Of a DNA stretch of 32,987 nucleotides, positions 12,993 through 27,807 are shown piece by piece. Below the pieces are notes generated by a model that was not told the DNA's origin, ran no database searches, and saw only the letters and a list, made by a program, of their open reading frames with translations. Position 1 is the stretch's first letter. The number at the start of each line of letters is the position of its first letter. Both the position numbers and the translations under genes were made by a program. This stretch comes from an uncultured Bacteroidia bacterium (GTDB lineage Bacteria > Bacteroidota > Bacteroidia > Bacteroidales > Prolixibacteraceae), in assembly GCA_903881215.1 (NCBI GenBank), contig CAIRSO010000090.1:1-32987 (forward strand). Direction: 5' to 3'.

Positions 12993-13970
12993 TCACCTTT
13001 CCACATTGTTTTCGATGATTTCTGTTAACAAATCAGTCAGATTTAGACCTGCTGCTTTAATCTGTTGCGGAATAAAGCTGGTGGCCGTCATTCCGGGTAC
13101 GGTGTTGATTTCCAGAAAATAGAATGTTTGGTCTTTCAGAATGTAATCGACCCGAACGATGCCTTTGCAGCTGCAGAGATCGTATATTTCAGAGGAGAGG
13201 GATTGCACTTTAGATGTAAGTGATGCACTGATTCTGGCAGGAGTAATCTCCTCAGCCATCCCTGGTGTATATTTGGCTTCGTAATCGAAAAACTCATTTT
13301 TGGGAATCACCTCTGTCACCGGAAGGACAATTTTTTTCGCCCCGATTTTTACCACCCCGCATGTAAACTCTTTCCCGTCAATAAACTGTTCGATCAATAC
13401 TTCGGGACTTTCATCGAATGCTTTTGCCACTGCTACAGCCAGTTCAGCCTCCTTTTTTACCTTAGTGACGCCAAAGCTAGATCCTCCTGCACTTGGTTTT
13501 ACGAACAGCGGCAGTCCGAGCTCTCCGATAACTTCAGAAGGATTCCATTTTTCATCCGGCACCAGTCGCAATGATCTGGCCAGCGGGATGCCGTATGACT
13601 GAAGGTATTTGTTGCAGAAATTTTTGTTGAAAGTAAGGGCAGAGGATTGAACACCGCAAGAAGAGTAGGGGATTCCCAGCATCTCAAAGTAGCCTTGAAG
13701 GTTGCCGTCTTCACCCGGAGTGCCGTGAATCATGATGTAGGCATATTCCAGCCGGATTTTTTCTTCATTCCATACAAAGGAAAAATCACTCCGGTTAACG
13801 TTGGCAATCACTGTTTCTCCGTTCAGTACGTTCCATTCGCCATTCCGGATGAAAACCATCCAGGGGGTGAACAACTTAGGATCAATTGCTTGCAGGACAT
13901 TGGCCCCGCTTTTTACAGAGACTACATACTCGGAAGAATCTCCTCCTGTAACGATTGCGATATTTTTCAT
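12993..13970 (-). CDS. ddl: D-alanine--D-alanine ligase
   Basis: This ATP-grasp enzyme joins two D-alanines in the cytoplasm for peptidoglycan precursor synthesis. The 325-residue protein has the usual three-part layout. An N-terminal domain carries HGTPGEDGNLQGYFEMLGIPY (82-102). The central lid has FVKPSAGGSSFGV with the ATP-contacting lysine near 158. The C-terminal domain has the metal-binding EINTVPGMT (from about 287). Immediately upstream on the same strand lie the repeat-flanked remnant, then rluD and a PASTA protein, a gene order common in Bacteroidales. The octamer array starts three bases before its ATG, so it forms the 5' leader if ddl is read from the rluD transcript. No separate promoter is visible. 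Confidence 0.95.
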   Translation of the reverse strand: MKNIAIVTGGDSSEYVVSVKSGANVLQAIDPKLFTPWMVFIRNGEWNVLNGETVIANVNRSDFSFVWNEEKIRLEYAYIMIHGTPGEDGNLQGYFEMLGIPYSSCGVQSSALTFNKNFCNKYLQSYGIPLARSLRLVPDEKWNPSEVIGELGLPLFVKPSAGGSSFGVTKVKKEAELAVAVAKAFDESPEVLIEQFIDGKEFTCGVVKIGAKKIVLPVTEVIPKNEFFDYEAKYTPGMAEEITPARISASLTSKVQSLSSEIYDLCSCKGIVRVDYILKDQTFYFLEINTVPGMTATSFIPQQIKAAGLNLTDLLTEIIENNVER

Positions 13971-13973
13971 AAT

Positions 13974-14101
13974 GTGCTAATATGCTAATGTGCTAATGTG
14001 CTAATGTGCTAATGTGCTAATGTGCTAATGTGCTAATATGCTAATATGCTAATGTGCTAATATGCTAATATGCTAATGTGCTAATATGCTAATATGCTAA
14101 T
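13974..14101. repeat. tandem array of sixteen 8-bp units (RTGCTAAT)
   Basis: Sixteen perfectly phased copies of RTGCTAAT occupy exactly 128 bp with no indels. The only variation is the first base: nine units begin with G (1, 3-8, 11, 14) and seven with A (2, 9, 10, 12, 13, 15, 16). The array runs up to the ddl start codon region. The same unit recurs in inverted orientation at 14264-14287. Confidence 0.97.
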
Positions 14102-14109
14102 TGAAAGAA

Positions 14110-14271
14110 TTAATTTTTGTTCTTTGATGTTGAGATAATGGATGATAATAATCTTTGTTTAACCAGGACATATTTCTTCAGCAGCTCAAGTTGTTCTGAT
14201 AATTCAATTATCGACAAAGCAAATATAAAACTCTTTTCCAGAACAACATTTCGTTTTTCCCCAATTAGCAA
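14110..14271 (-). pseudogene. internally deleted four-helix-bundle (23S rRNA intervening-sequence protein, S23) gene remnant
   Basis: On the minus strand a short frame (TTG 14271 to TAA 14110) reads NVVLEKSFIFALSIIELSEQ and continues with a LELLKKYVLVKQ segment. From family knowledge, this is the characteristic first helix of four-helix-bundle proteins encoded in 23S rRNA intervening sequences and dispersed in Bacteroidota genomes. Full proteins are about 115-125 residues; here about 53 codons remain. The segment after VKQ is not the expected second-helix SGTSIGAN-type motif. It reads LLSSIISTSKNKN and stops, which looks like the family's C-terminal tail. The simplest reading is an internal deletion that joined both ends. 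No ATG is left. The assignment is by eye; the deletion model is inference. Confidence 0.7.
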
Positions 14272-14287
14272 ATTAGCATATTAGCAC
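14264..14287. repeat. three inverted octamer units next to the rluD stop
   Basis: ATTAGCAA, ATTAGCAT and ATTAGCAC are the reverse complement of the RTGCTAAT unit in the array at 13974-14101, with one variant end base. They lie just downstream of rluD and upstream of the four-helix-bundle remnant. Confidence 0.93.
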
Positions 14288-14294
14288 ATTTTTT

Positions 14295-15356
14295 TCATTC
14301 CCGATTGGTTAGATAATTCCGCCACTTCTCAATGCAGGCCTGCATATCTTCGGGTAGCTCAGAATCGAAAATCATCTCCTGATGGGTTGTTGGGTGAATA
14401 AAGCCAAGTGTTTTGGCATGCAAAGCCTGTCGGGGAAGTATGGCAAAGCAGTTCTCCACAAATTGCTTGTATTTGGTGAAGGTTGTGCCTTTGAGGATTT
14501 TGTTTCCTCCGTATACTTCATCGTTAAAGAGTGGATGCCCAATCTCTTTCATATGTACTCTGATCTGGTGTGTCCGGCCTGTTTCCAAAACACATTCTAC
14601 GAGATTGACATATCCAAGCCTTTCCAAAACCCTGTAGTGTGTCACCGCTGGTTTGCCATGGTCGCCGTTGGGATAAACTGTGAATACTTGTCTGTCCCTT
14701 GTGCTGCGTCCAATGTTCCCTTCTATGGTGCCTGAATCAGCGGCCAGATTTCCCCAAACAAGTGCGACATATTGCCTTTGTGTTGTCTTTCTGAAGAATT
14801 GCATGGCCAGATTGAGTTTGGCAAGCTCCGTTTTAGCGACGAGTAGCAACCCGGATGTATTTTTATCGATCCGGTGAACCAGTCCGGGACGTGGATCATC
14901 ACCCCCATACAGCGGAAGTCCCTGGAATCTGAATGCAAGGGCATTGACGAGGGTGCCGGTGTAATTCCCATGACCAGGGTGCACGACCAGACCGGGAGGC
15001 TTGTTGACGATAAGTAGCTCCTCGTCCTCGTAAATGACATTGATGGGAATATCTTCCGGTATTATTTTCGTCTCCCTCCGGGGATAGTCCATTACAACAG
15101 TCACCTCATCACTCGGTTTTACCCTGTAGTTGGATTTGACAGGCTTTCCATTCACCAAAATACTCCCTGCTTCGGCGGCCATTTGTATCCGGTTACGGGA
15201 AGTGCCCAGAATACGGTTGGAAAGGAACTTATCTACCCGCATGAGTCCTTGTCCGGGATCTGCAACAAAGCGGTGGTGTTCGAACTGTCCGGCTAACTCT
15301 TCGTTATCGTCGGCCAGATCAAGGTCATCAAAAATGGATTCTTCGTTTTGTTTCAT
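14295..15356 (-). CDS. rluD: RluA/RluD-family 23S rRNA pseudouridine synthase
   Basis: This enzyme isomerises uridines in RNA, most likely 23S rRNA. The 353-residue protein has an acidic N-terminal extension (to about 30) and an S4 RNA-binding domain (about 38-95, with MRVDKFLSNRI and GSILVNGKPV). The catalytic domain carries the signature HRIDKNTSGLLLV at 161-173, where Asp164 is the expected nucleophile. RTHQIRVHM lies near the C-terminal third. It starts 18 bp after the PASTA gene stop, so they are co-transcribed. The specific RluD name is chosen by size and S4 domain; another RluA-family specificity cannot be excluded. Confidence 0.9.
   Translation of the reverse strand: MKQNEESIFDDLDLADDNEELAGQFEHHRFVADPGQGLMRVDKFLSNRILGTSRNRIQMAAEAGSILVNGKPVKSNYRVKPSDEVTVVMDYPRRETKIIPEDIPINVIYEDEELLIVNKPPGLVVHPGHGNYTGTLVNALAFRFQGLPLYGGDDPRPGLVHRIDKNTSGLLLVAKTELAKLNLAMQFFRKTTQRQYVALVWGNLAADSGTIEGNIGRSTRDRQVFTVYPNGDHGKPAVTHYRVLERLGYVNLVECVLETGRTHQIRVHMKEIGHPLFNDEVYGGNKILKGTTFTKYKQFVENCFAILPRQALHAKTLGFIHPTTHQEMIFDSELPEDMQACIEKWRNYLTNRE

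Positions 15357-27741: not shown

Positions 27742-27750
<9 letters not shown>
26836..27750 (+). CDS. proline dehydrogenase
   Basis: This FAD enzyme oxidises L-proline to pyrroline-5-carboxylate and passes electrons to the quinone pool. The 304-residue size matches the short monofunctional (PutB-like) class rather than bifunctional PutA. Family landmarks run along the barrel: ISIKPSMFGL, FIRIDMEDST, RLCKGIYVE, GIATHDHYLVE, EFQMLYGV, and VPFGTHWFSYSTRRLKENP, where the paired arginines bind the proline carboxylate. The start is ATG 26836, directly followed by a second ATG. No P5C dehydrogenase gene is adjacent. Its stop codon lies inside the inverted heptamer that opens a CTCAACT repeat. Confidence 0.93.

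Positions 27751-27807
<57 letters not shown>

Follow-up and report, generated by a model that had tools for sequence, protein, structure and literature searches.

S23 genes, which encode four-helix-bundle proteins, are common in the bacterial family to which the genome studied here belongs, and we know of no function for them. Likewise, heptamer and octamer arrays have been reported repeatedly in bacterial spacers, and to our knowledge they have no known source. In REP/RAYT and REPIN systems, a short intergenic repeat is dispersed through the genome together with a cognate protein lineage, the gene of which is itself flanked by the repeat, and paired copies of the repeat exist without the gene. 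MITEs are short intergenic sequences bounded by inverted repeats, devoid of a transposase, and derived from a larger element by internal deletion.

In Coxiella, the intervening sequence (IVS) of the 23S rRNA has a stem of 28 bp and contains an S23 ORF, and it is called a selfish genetic element in its description (PMC4990558). Tandem arrays of short units are described in Xanthomonas (GGGAATC, with 186 arrays and 70 cases of inverted pairs in X. campestris, PMC4692102), in Geobacter metallireducens (GTTGCTYN and other arrays, presented as predicted regulator sites, PMC2700814), in Beggiatoaceae and Bacteroidetes (TAACTGA arrays, PMC4679880), and in the P6b stem of the Nostoc trnL intron, where heptamers fall into classes I and II and one class replaces the other at one site (PMC4476775). 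Like the arrays reported below, these are tandem, mostly intergenic, dispersed and made of organism-specific units, and in Xanthomonas and Geobacter they often form inverted pairs. No link to an S23 gene was met in the accessible parts of these four accounts; the term 'four helix' is absent from the main text of PMC4679880, PMC2700814 and PMC4692102, and 'S23' from that of PMC4679880 and PMC4692102. Among the matches listed in the open-access literature, no paper joins S23, IVS or four-helix proteins with such repeats or with mobility.

The element described here was found in a 32,987-nucleotide stretch of DNA (hereafter the window) from an uncultured Bacteroidia bacterium, whose genome is designated G000. 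It was compared with the other genomes of a genus set of eight, with a set of 60 genomes of the family, and with S23 loci from more distant organisms.

The element between rluD and ddl

The element lies between two ORFs of the minus strand, which are named as in the original prediction. Its features are the following.

12993..13970, minus strand: 325-aa ORF, which we take to be ddl (D-alanine-D-alanine ligase), downstream neighbour in transcription, matched in 8/8 genus genomes (in G060, by a contig end of 27 residues only)
13970..14101, plus strand: ddl-side arm, tandem array of 16.5 octamers TAATRTGC (TAATGTGC), Tandem Repeats Finder period 8 with 94% matches
14110..14271, minus strand: remnant of an S23/IVP (four-helix-bundle) gene, N-terminal part fused in frame to the C-terminal tail
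14262..14290, minus strand: rluD-side arm, 3.5 copies of the octamer in inverted orientation, 28/29 complementary to 14075-14103
14295..15356, minus strand: 353-aa ORF, presumably rluD (pseudouridine synthase), upstream neighbour in transcription

The ddl-side arm contains 16 exact copies of TAATRTGC, as direct repeats spaced 8 bp, and Tandem Repeats Finder places the inverted array of the rluD side at 14263-14290 (period 8, 3.5 copies). The best inverted pair, formed by 14075-14103 and 14262-14290, is 29 nt long and 97% complementary (28/29), with 158 nt between its arms. Its score of 26 was reached by none of 1000 shuffles, the shuffle maximum being 19. These measurements agree with the original prediction of inverted octamer repeats (24/25) around 160 bp between rluD and ddl, which had left out the array of 16.5 octamers on the ddl side and the fact that the element abuts both genes. 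The whole rluD-ddl spacer is in fact one element (13970-14290), made of an array, a 158-bp core and an inverted array: the array and the ddl start codon (13968-13970) have one base in common, the last of the codon, and a gap of 4 nt is left between the inverted array and the rluD stop codon (14295-14297).

Taken alone, the remnant gene matches the S23 profile PF05635 weakly (E 0.008, 16.8 bits for a cut-off of 33.8), and TIGR02436 with an E value of 0.04. Two congeners carry a full-length S23 gene above the PF05635 cut-off at the rluD-ddl junction (82.6 bits in G052, 82.0 bits in G007). Because full-length genes occupy this same junction, both the S23 identity of the remnant and its deletion are settled. 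The expected match of the frame to the S23 profile thus holds by way of the junction orthologues and not for the fragment itself: the remnant being below the cut-off and its orthologues above, it is what is left of a member of the family, not an intact member. Relative to the G007 gene and to a paralogue on contig C587 of its own genome, 65 codons are missing in frame, which bears out the proposal that the core consists of the start of an S23 gene fused to its tail, the middle being lost. The ATG of the full-length congener genes reads GGG in the remnant, and a TTG is present at 14269-14271. Both S23 genes of the TAATRTGC clade seen in G000 look broken, the window copy by its deletion and the C587 copy by one stop.

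Like the IVS of the Coxiella and Leptospira 23S rRNA (PMC4990558), the element has an S23-family ORF between stem-forming inverted ends, and its distribution is sporadic. It differs in lying between protein genes and not in rRNA, in having as its ends arrays of 7-10-bp units, the unit varying with the S23 clade, and in the dispersal of gene-less arrays of this unit through the genome.

The junction was compared in seven of the eight genus genomes, as G060 ends at a contig edge, and the end of rluD was found upstream of ddl in the congeners compared. Five states were observed: a full-length S23 gene between TAATRTGC-type arrays in G007 and G052 (the G052 bracket being weak, with an inverted score of 12), the deleted gene between TAATRTGC arrays in G000, a AATGTGGA-type inverted pair without recognisable S23 gene in G062, an AAGGATA-type inverted pair, also without recognisable S23 gene, in G061 and G028, and a plain spacer with no element in G040. 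The repeat family found at this one junction thus depends on the species and, in line with the original prediction, the interval is not conserved in the ordinary way among relatives. No target site duplication (TSD) was found at the junction, where no spacer is available for comparison because the arrays reach as far as the two ORFs. Inspection by eye of the spacer of G040, which lacks the element, revealed no obvious likeness.

In G061 and G028 (loci L077/L081), the rluD stop codon, as read by eye, seems to be part of the AAGGATA-type array (GGA TAA in G061, GAC TAA in G028), which would thus add a few residues to the rluD product. Elsewhere in the window, a second short array, made of seven copies of the 7-mer TCTCAAC (27755-27804), fills the spacer of two convergent ORFs ending at 27750 and 27813. 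A CTCAACT stretch in locus L027 resembles it, and no S23 gene was seen beside the window array.

Repeat brackets and the S23 protein tree

PF05635 has 61 matches in the eight genus genomes, 55 above the cut-off and 6 below, the latter being kept as a control. At least 300 bp were available on each side of 50 of the 55 genes. For these, the 500 bp upstream were compared with the 500 bp downstream, and a bracket was scored when the inverted ungapped score was at least 15. Inverted arms of 7-10-bp units were found to bracket 45 of the 50 testable genes, as compared to 5/300 cross-locus flank pairs, 0/84 random places in the same loci, 0/184 window places and 0/6 of the PF05635 matches below cut-off. 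When the two flanks were considered jointly, the best period, which is weak in some of the 55 loci, was 7 in 27 of them, 8 in 19, 9 in eight and 10 in one. The units vary by locus, examples being GGGAGACT, AATTATG, ATTTTGG, AGTACTTAA, GCATGGG, AAGGATA and TAATGTGC. TAATRTGC arms surround S23 genes at two sites in G007 and on C587 in G000, with a weaker bracket in G052. In the S23 sense, the 5' arm is rich in G and poor in C, with G exceeding C in 40/45 genus loci, and also in 33 of the 37 loci having arms in the set of named loci described below.

The ratio dN/dS was 0.05-0.15 in seven of ten S23 pairs, dS being saturated in the other three; S23 genes are under purifying selection. In three loci of the AAGGATA clade (L134, L133 and L130), a conserved palindromic stretch of the AATAATTTTCAGTAACTTATATAGAAAATTATT type precedes the S23 start codon, and is possibly a candidate autoregulatory or recognition hairpin. 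One G007 stretch (L124, C234:1-13500) holds three S23 units, of two clades, within 10 kb (matches at 803, 2350 and 10484).

Neighbours and gaps were surveyed in the 47 of 55 loci that passed the periodicity floor. With ORFs called mechanically, and for gap figures that come without a null, the outer gap between the S23 unit and the called ORF was within 10 nt in 42/91 cases and within 25 nt in 64/91. At the 44 sites where both neighbours were called, S23 was codirectional with them in 17 and opposite to both in 11, and the neighbours were convergent in 15 and divergent in one. These orientations bear on an explanation at the RNA level, in which the unit would be the mRNA counterpart of the 23S rRNA IVS: RNase III would cut the stem formed by the arms, S23 would bind the excised RNA, and mobility would be incidental. 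The window arms can indeed pair over 29 nt, the RNA fold of the interval surpasses 99 of 100 shuffles in stability (z -2.89), and the Coxiella rRNA IVS likewise has an S23 ORF and inverted ends (PMC4990558). However, the orientation of S23 does not follow host transcription, and the 15 convergent sites count against this explanation because convergent spacers need no processing. Nor was any rRNA match found in the 40 S23 loci scanned. We consider it rather unlikely that the units work in this way.

With none of these 40 loci matching rRNA, and no Rfam match at gathering scores in the window, an rRNA context for the S23 units was rejected. Descent from an rRNA IVS, which the element resembles according to the original prediction, finds no support.

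The tree of S23 proteins comprised 52 sequences of the genus, three of the 55 being too short (these three have flank units other than those tested in trans). Clades sharing one unit included eight proteins with an AAAGGAT-type unit, four with TAATGTGC, four with a AATGTGGA-type unit, two with ATTCGACA, four with AGTACTTAA, three with ATTTTGG, three with AGCTATT and two with GCATGGG; a clade of 11 S23 proteins (the GACTGGGG group) mixes periods 7, 8 and 9. When placed on the tree, the period label changed 9 times, versus a mean of 22.4 after shuffling, and 0/200 shuffles were as low. Protein identity was also correlated with array similarity (Mantel Pearson r 0.55, reached in 0/2000 permutations, of which the largest gave 0.14; Spearman 0.30), over 1298 pairs of loci in which no common flank DNA was detected, as selected by a blastn filter that may miss diverged orthologous sites. 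The coupling is directly visible in S23 loci on different contigs of one genome, as with TAATGTGC on C131 and C235 of G007, and AAGGATA on C36 and C49 of G062. Some clade members (AGTACTTAA, ATTTTGG) share one orthologous site, and the coupling is therefore in part due to common descent in place.

The chance proximity of a microsatellite-like octamer array and a decayed gene, unconnected to each other, would be compatible with the weak S23 match of the window fragment when taken alone, and tandem arrays do expand by slippage. Yet locus-specific brackets are present at 45/50 genus S23 genes and their unit follows the protein tree, so that such a coincidence is scarcely credible. On the basis of shuffles, cross-locus controls and random-place controls, a chance origin was rejected.

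At two orthologous sites, the whole unit is inverted between species: G007 C173 and G061 C54 versus G000 C745 at the first, G007 C234:803 versus G000 C5 at the second. In both cases both flanks are reversed and the switch occurs at the arrays. Comparison of G007 C87 with G062 C18 revealed an inversion with one flank, and in two of the six site pairs (G060 C128/G007 C236 and G000 C753/G062 C41) no clean inversion was seen. Recombination between the inverted arms would explain the clean inversions, as would independent insertion. The arms within a locus were more alike than the arms across species in 9/12 orthologous pairs of the same orientation, which are not independent. Nine pairs of inverted orientation were left out of this comparison because flank homology swamps the score (12/21 if they are included).

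Dispersed arrays and their distribution

Three units were searched in the eight genus genomes, which makes 24 cells, a hit for TAATRTGC being defined as three exact units. In the 60 genomes of the family, TAATRTGC arrays were present in three, G000 (33 hits), G007 (130) and G052 (8), and these are exactly the holders of the TAATRTGC S23 clade among the five genus genomes of this set. None were found in the further congeners G060, G061 and G062, none in the 55 family genomes outside the genus, where S23 clades are unassigned, and the reversed pattern used as a control gave no hit in all 60 genomes. AAGGATA arrays were found in G000, G007, G028, G061 and G062, which all carry the AAGGATA S23 clade, and were absent from G040, G052 and G060, which are all without it. 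For ATTCGACA there were 76 hits in G007, one in G062 and none in the other six genomes.

Array presence thus matches the cognate S23 clade in 24/24 genus cells, and all 14 clade-less cells are array-free. These cells are not independent, because they come from one genus with a species tree giving no resolution; the ddl tree of seven genus genomes, in particular, does not resolve whether the three TAATRTGC genomes form one clade. The eight ATTCGACA cells had been predicted in writing, and six others (TAATRTGC and AAGGATA in G060, G061 and G062) were foreseen but unrecorded. Outside the genus, AAGGATA arrays were found in G048 only (2 hits at one place), and none of the five S23 genes examined there, out of nine, has AAGGATA.

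The hits extend beyond the S23 loci. For TAATRTGC, none of the 7 hit places of G052 is on the S23 contig, and 6 of 8 contigs in G000 are gene-less; the ATTCGACA hits exclude the two S23 contigs. Other copies with the same ends, another element of the original prediction, thus exist as TAATRTGC arrays at other sites in G000 and in other genomes. From a subset of the hits, we read 22 gene-less TAATRTGC array sites in G007 and G052 (20 stretches) and 20 AAGGATA stretches. Nine of the TAATRTGC sites are inverted pairs around interiors of about 30-220 bp that are unrelated to one another, and 13 are single arrays. At 17/22 sites a called ORF lies no more than 10 nt from one or both ends of the array or pair, in either gene direction, which resembles the position of the S23 units. 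As judged by eye and unscored, the gene-less AAGGATA copies share short subterminal pieces. Arrays of a different unit are present inside some AAGGATA pairs (AGTTATA in L254, GACTGGGG in L263), which looks like nesting. In a G048 stretch (L284, C10:149000-151600), positions ~1050-1550 hold many different 7-8-mer arrays in a row, like a graveyard of unit families.

As in REP/RAYT systems, a dispersed repeat is found only with its cognate gene lineage throughout the genus cells, G048 being a possible exception outside the genus. The bracketed gene differs, however, since it encodes the PF05635 four-helix S23/Avd fold and not a Y1 transposase, and the repeats are tandem arrays where REP sequences are single palindromes. 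The window copy is MITE-like in being short, intergenic and internally deleted, and in sharing inverted ends with a larger, gene-carrying element. Unlike a MITE, it has no TSD that could be found and its ends are arrays of variable length. Because the interiors of gene-less TAATRTGC copies are unrelated, a classic MITE with a shared interior was rejected for this family.

These gene-less copies could also mean that the arrays came first, spreading alone by slippage and recombination, and that S23 is a hitchhiker, carried by homologous recombination from one array to another with the same unit. Array copy number does vary, inversion between inverted arms is an expected product of homologous recombination, and the closer likeness of arms within a locus, in those nine non-independent pairs, would follow as well, as would the G048 array without known cognate gene. 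On the other hand, hitchhiking predicts arrays without cognate S23 genes, and there were none in the 14/14 clade-less cells of the genus; TAATRTGC arrays were also lacking in 55/55 family genomes outside it, with the reservation on unassigned clades made above. We hold this order of events to be unlikely, and prefer to view the S23 gene and its arrays as the two parts of one unit. The proposal that an S23 gene and its flanking repeats are copied together is supported: arrays of the same octamer at other sites, a unit that follows the S23 clade at sites without detected shared flank, and the full-length copies at the junction all argue for it, whereas no insertion or transposition event, TSD or excised form was seen for S23-array units.

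Beyond the genus, a bracket score of at least 15 was obtained for six of the 30 best-scoring family S23 genes (L046-L075, with gene end set at a fixed length), the cross-locus control giving 6/148. Among 19 further family genes, scored without cross-locus control, seven reach 15 (6/14 from the lower listing and 1/5 from G048). A set of named loci, mostly Bacteroidota, gave 37/76 versus 5/304 cross-locus pairs; these 76 are the ones with enough flank among 80 loci, which were themselves the top-ranking ones of at least 587 pattern stretches and are thus biased to S23 genes resembling the query. Judging by record titles, many of which are of metagenome bins, 15 usable loci are clearly from other phyla, and seven of them reach 15: Anaerolineaceae (L157), an ANME-1 archaeon (L165), Cloacimonadota (L170), Atribacterota (L186), Geobacter (L206), Fermentibacteria (L209) and Nitrospirae (L212). 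The pattern is therefore present in Bacteroidota, as was first proposed, and is not confined to them. Among hand-picked genomes, a Geobacter genome with CGGGAYYC-type S23 arms has 13 hits of the CGGGAYYC-type unit, and the Cloacimonadota genome of L170, whose unit is similar, has 6; there were 0 hits in two genomes with other S23 units.

Eight plasmid loci (seven cyanobacterial, one from Riemerella) were hand-picked from 41 records and scored without cross-locus control. Five are bracketed, all cyanobacterial; four of these score at least 24, with the heptamers GGGAGTA, GGGAACA, GGGTGTA and GGGAAAA, and the fifth scores 15. On plasmid pNe_5 of Nostoc edaphicum (L264), the GGGAGTA-armed S23 unit stands between genes annotated as ribonucleotide reductase subunits. 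With one query (tblastn, E <= 0.001), no S23 match was found in 50,697 phage records.

The S23 protein and a proposed two-part unit

The AlphaFold model of an S23 protein (28 rows, mean pLDDT 96.5) is a four-helix bundle. It matches PDB entries 2GSC and 2RLD, each with five chains; 2GSC is the S23 protein XCC0516 of Xanthomonas campestris. It also matches Avd, the accessory protein of diversity-generating retroelements (4DWL, 8UB7 and relatives), with TM scores of 0.76-0.83, 8-11% identity and Foldseek E values of 0.04 or worse, and the confident matches of the fold search are S23 and Avd only. From these models we infer that S23 may be an oligomeric nucleic-acid binder. We know of no nuclease, transposase or polymerase motif in S23, nor of any catalytic domain.

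Likeness to the Avd fold suggests that S23 could act, as Avd does, with a reverse transcriptase located elsewhere in the genome, the units being retrotransposed. Sequence identity is 8-11%, however, and RVT_1 was unmatched in 3/8 genus genomes (G040, G052 and G062, drafts of 94-100% completeness), all of which have S23 genes. Dispersed arrays are present in G052 and G062 despite this. The units therefore do not obviously need a reverse transcriptase encoded by their own genome, which on the evidence of these drafts was rejected as a requirement, and we find a retroelement of this kind very doubtful.

We favour, with a probability of about 0.65, the reading that the window interval represents a non-autonomous copy, now decayed, of a two-part unit resembling a mobile element, the parts being an S23 gene and its cognate inverted arrays. 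This reading builds on the architecture of the units, the coupling of repeat unit and S23 clade, the matching distribution in the genus, the purifying selection on S23, the whole-unit inversion at two orthologous sites and the deletion in the window copy. Under it, each S23 lineage would tend to own a private tandem unit, here the octamer TAATRTGC, and the protein would recognise its own unit in tandem by putative binding. The form recognised is probably the stem between the two arms, either as RNA or as cruciform or single-stranded DNA. S23 may then support in trans the copying and spread of arrays and of array-bounded units, which would come to fill intergenic spacers. Spread or maintenance in trans that depends on S23 appears to be the likeliest mechanism, with a copying chemistry that is conjectural. 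The window copy, with its dead gene, would be a passenger acting in cis only.

More tentatively, and at somewhat less than even odds, S23/IVP proteins may be the trans-acting factors of an unrecognised class of dispersed-repeat elements, spanning bacterial phyla and at least one archaeon, whose lineages own, spread and ride between arrays of 7-10-bp units. The arrays of Nostoc, Xanthomonas, Geobacter, Beggiatoaceae and Bacteroidetes would then be footprints of such elements, and the rRNA IVS a special case within 23S rRNA. If true, this would be a second, unrelated design for the role played by REP/RAYT, and it could set the 23S rRNA IVS within a wider group of elements. The mirror-image arrays found in some Bacteroidota, Geobacter and cyanobacterial spacers would find an explanation in it, and the model predicts GGGAATC arrays around xcc0516 in Xanthomonas. 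The link between S23 genes and arrays thus provides a testable hypothesis for both: the protein family would have a private short word of DNA or RNA, and the repeat family a named protein.
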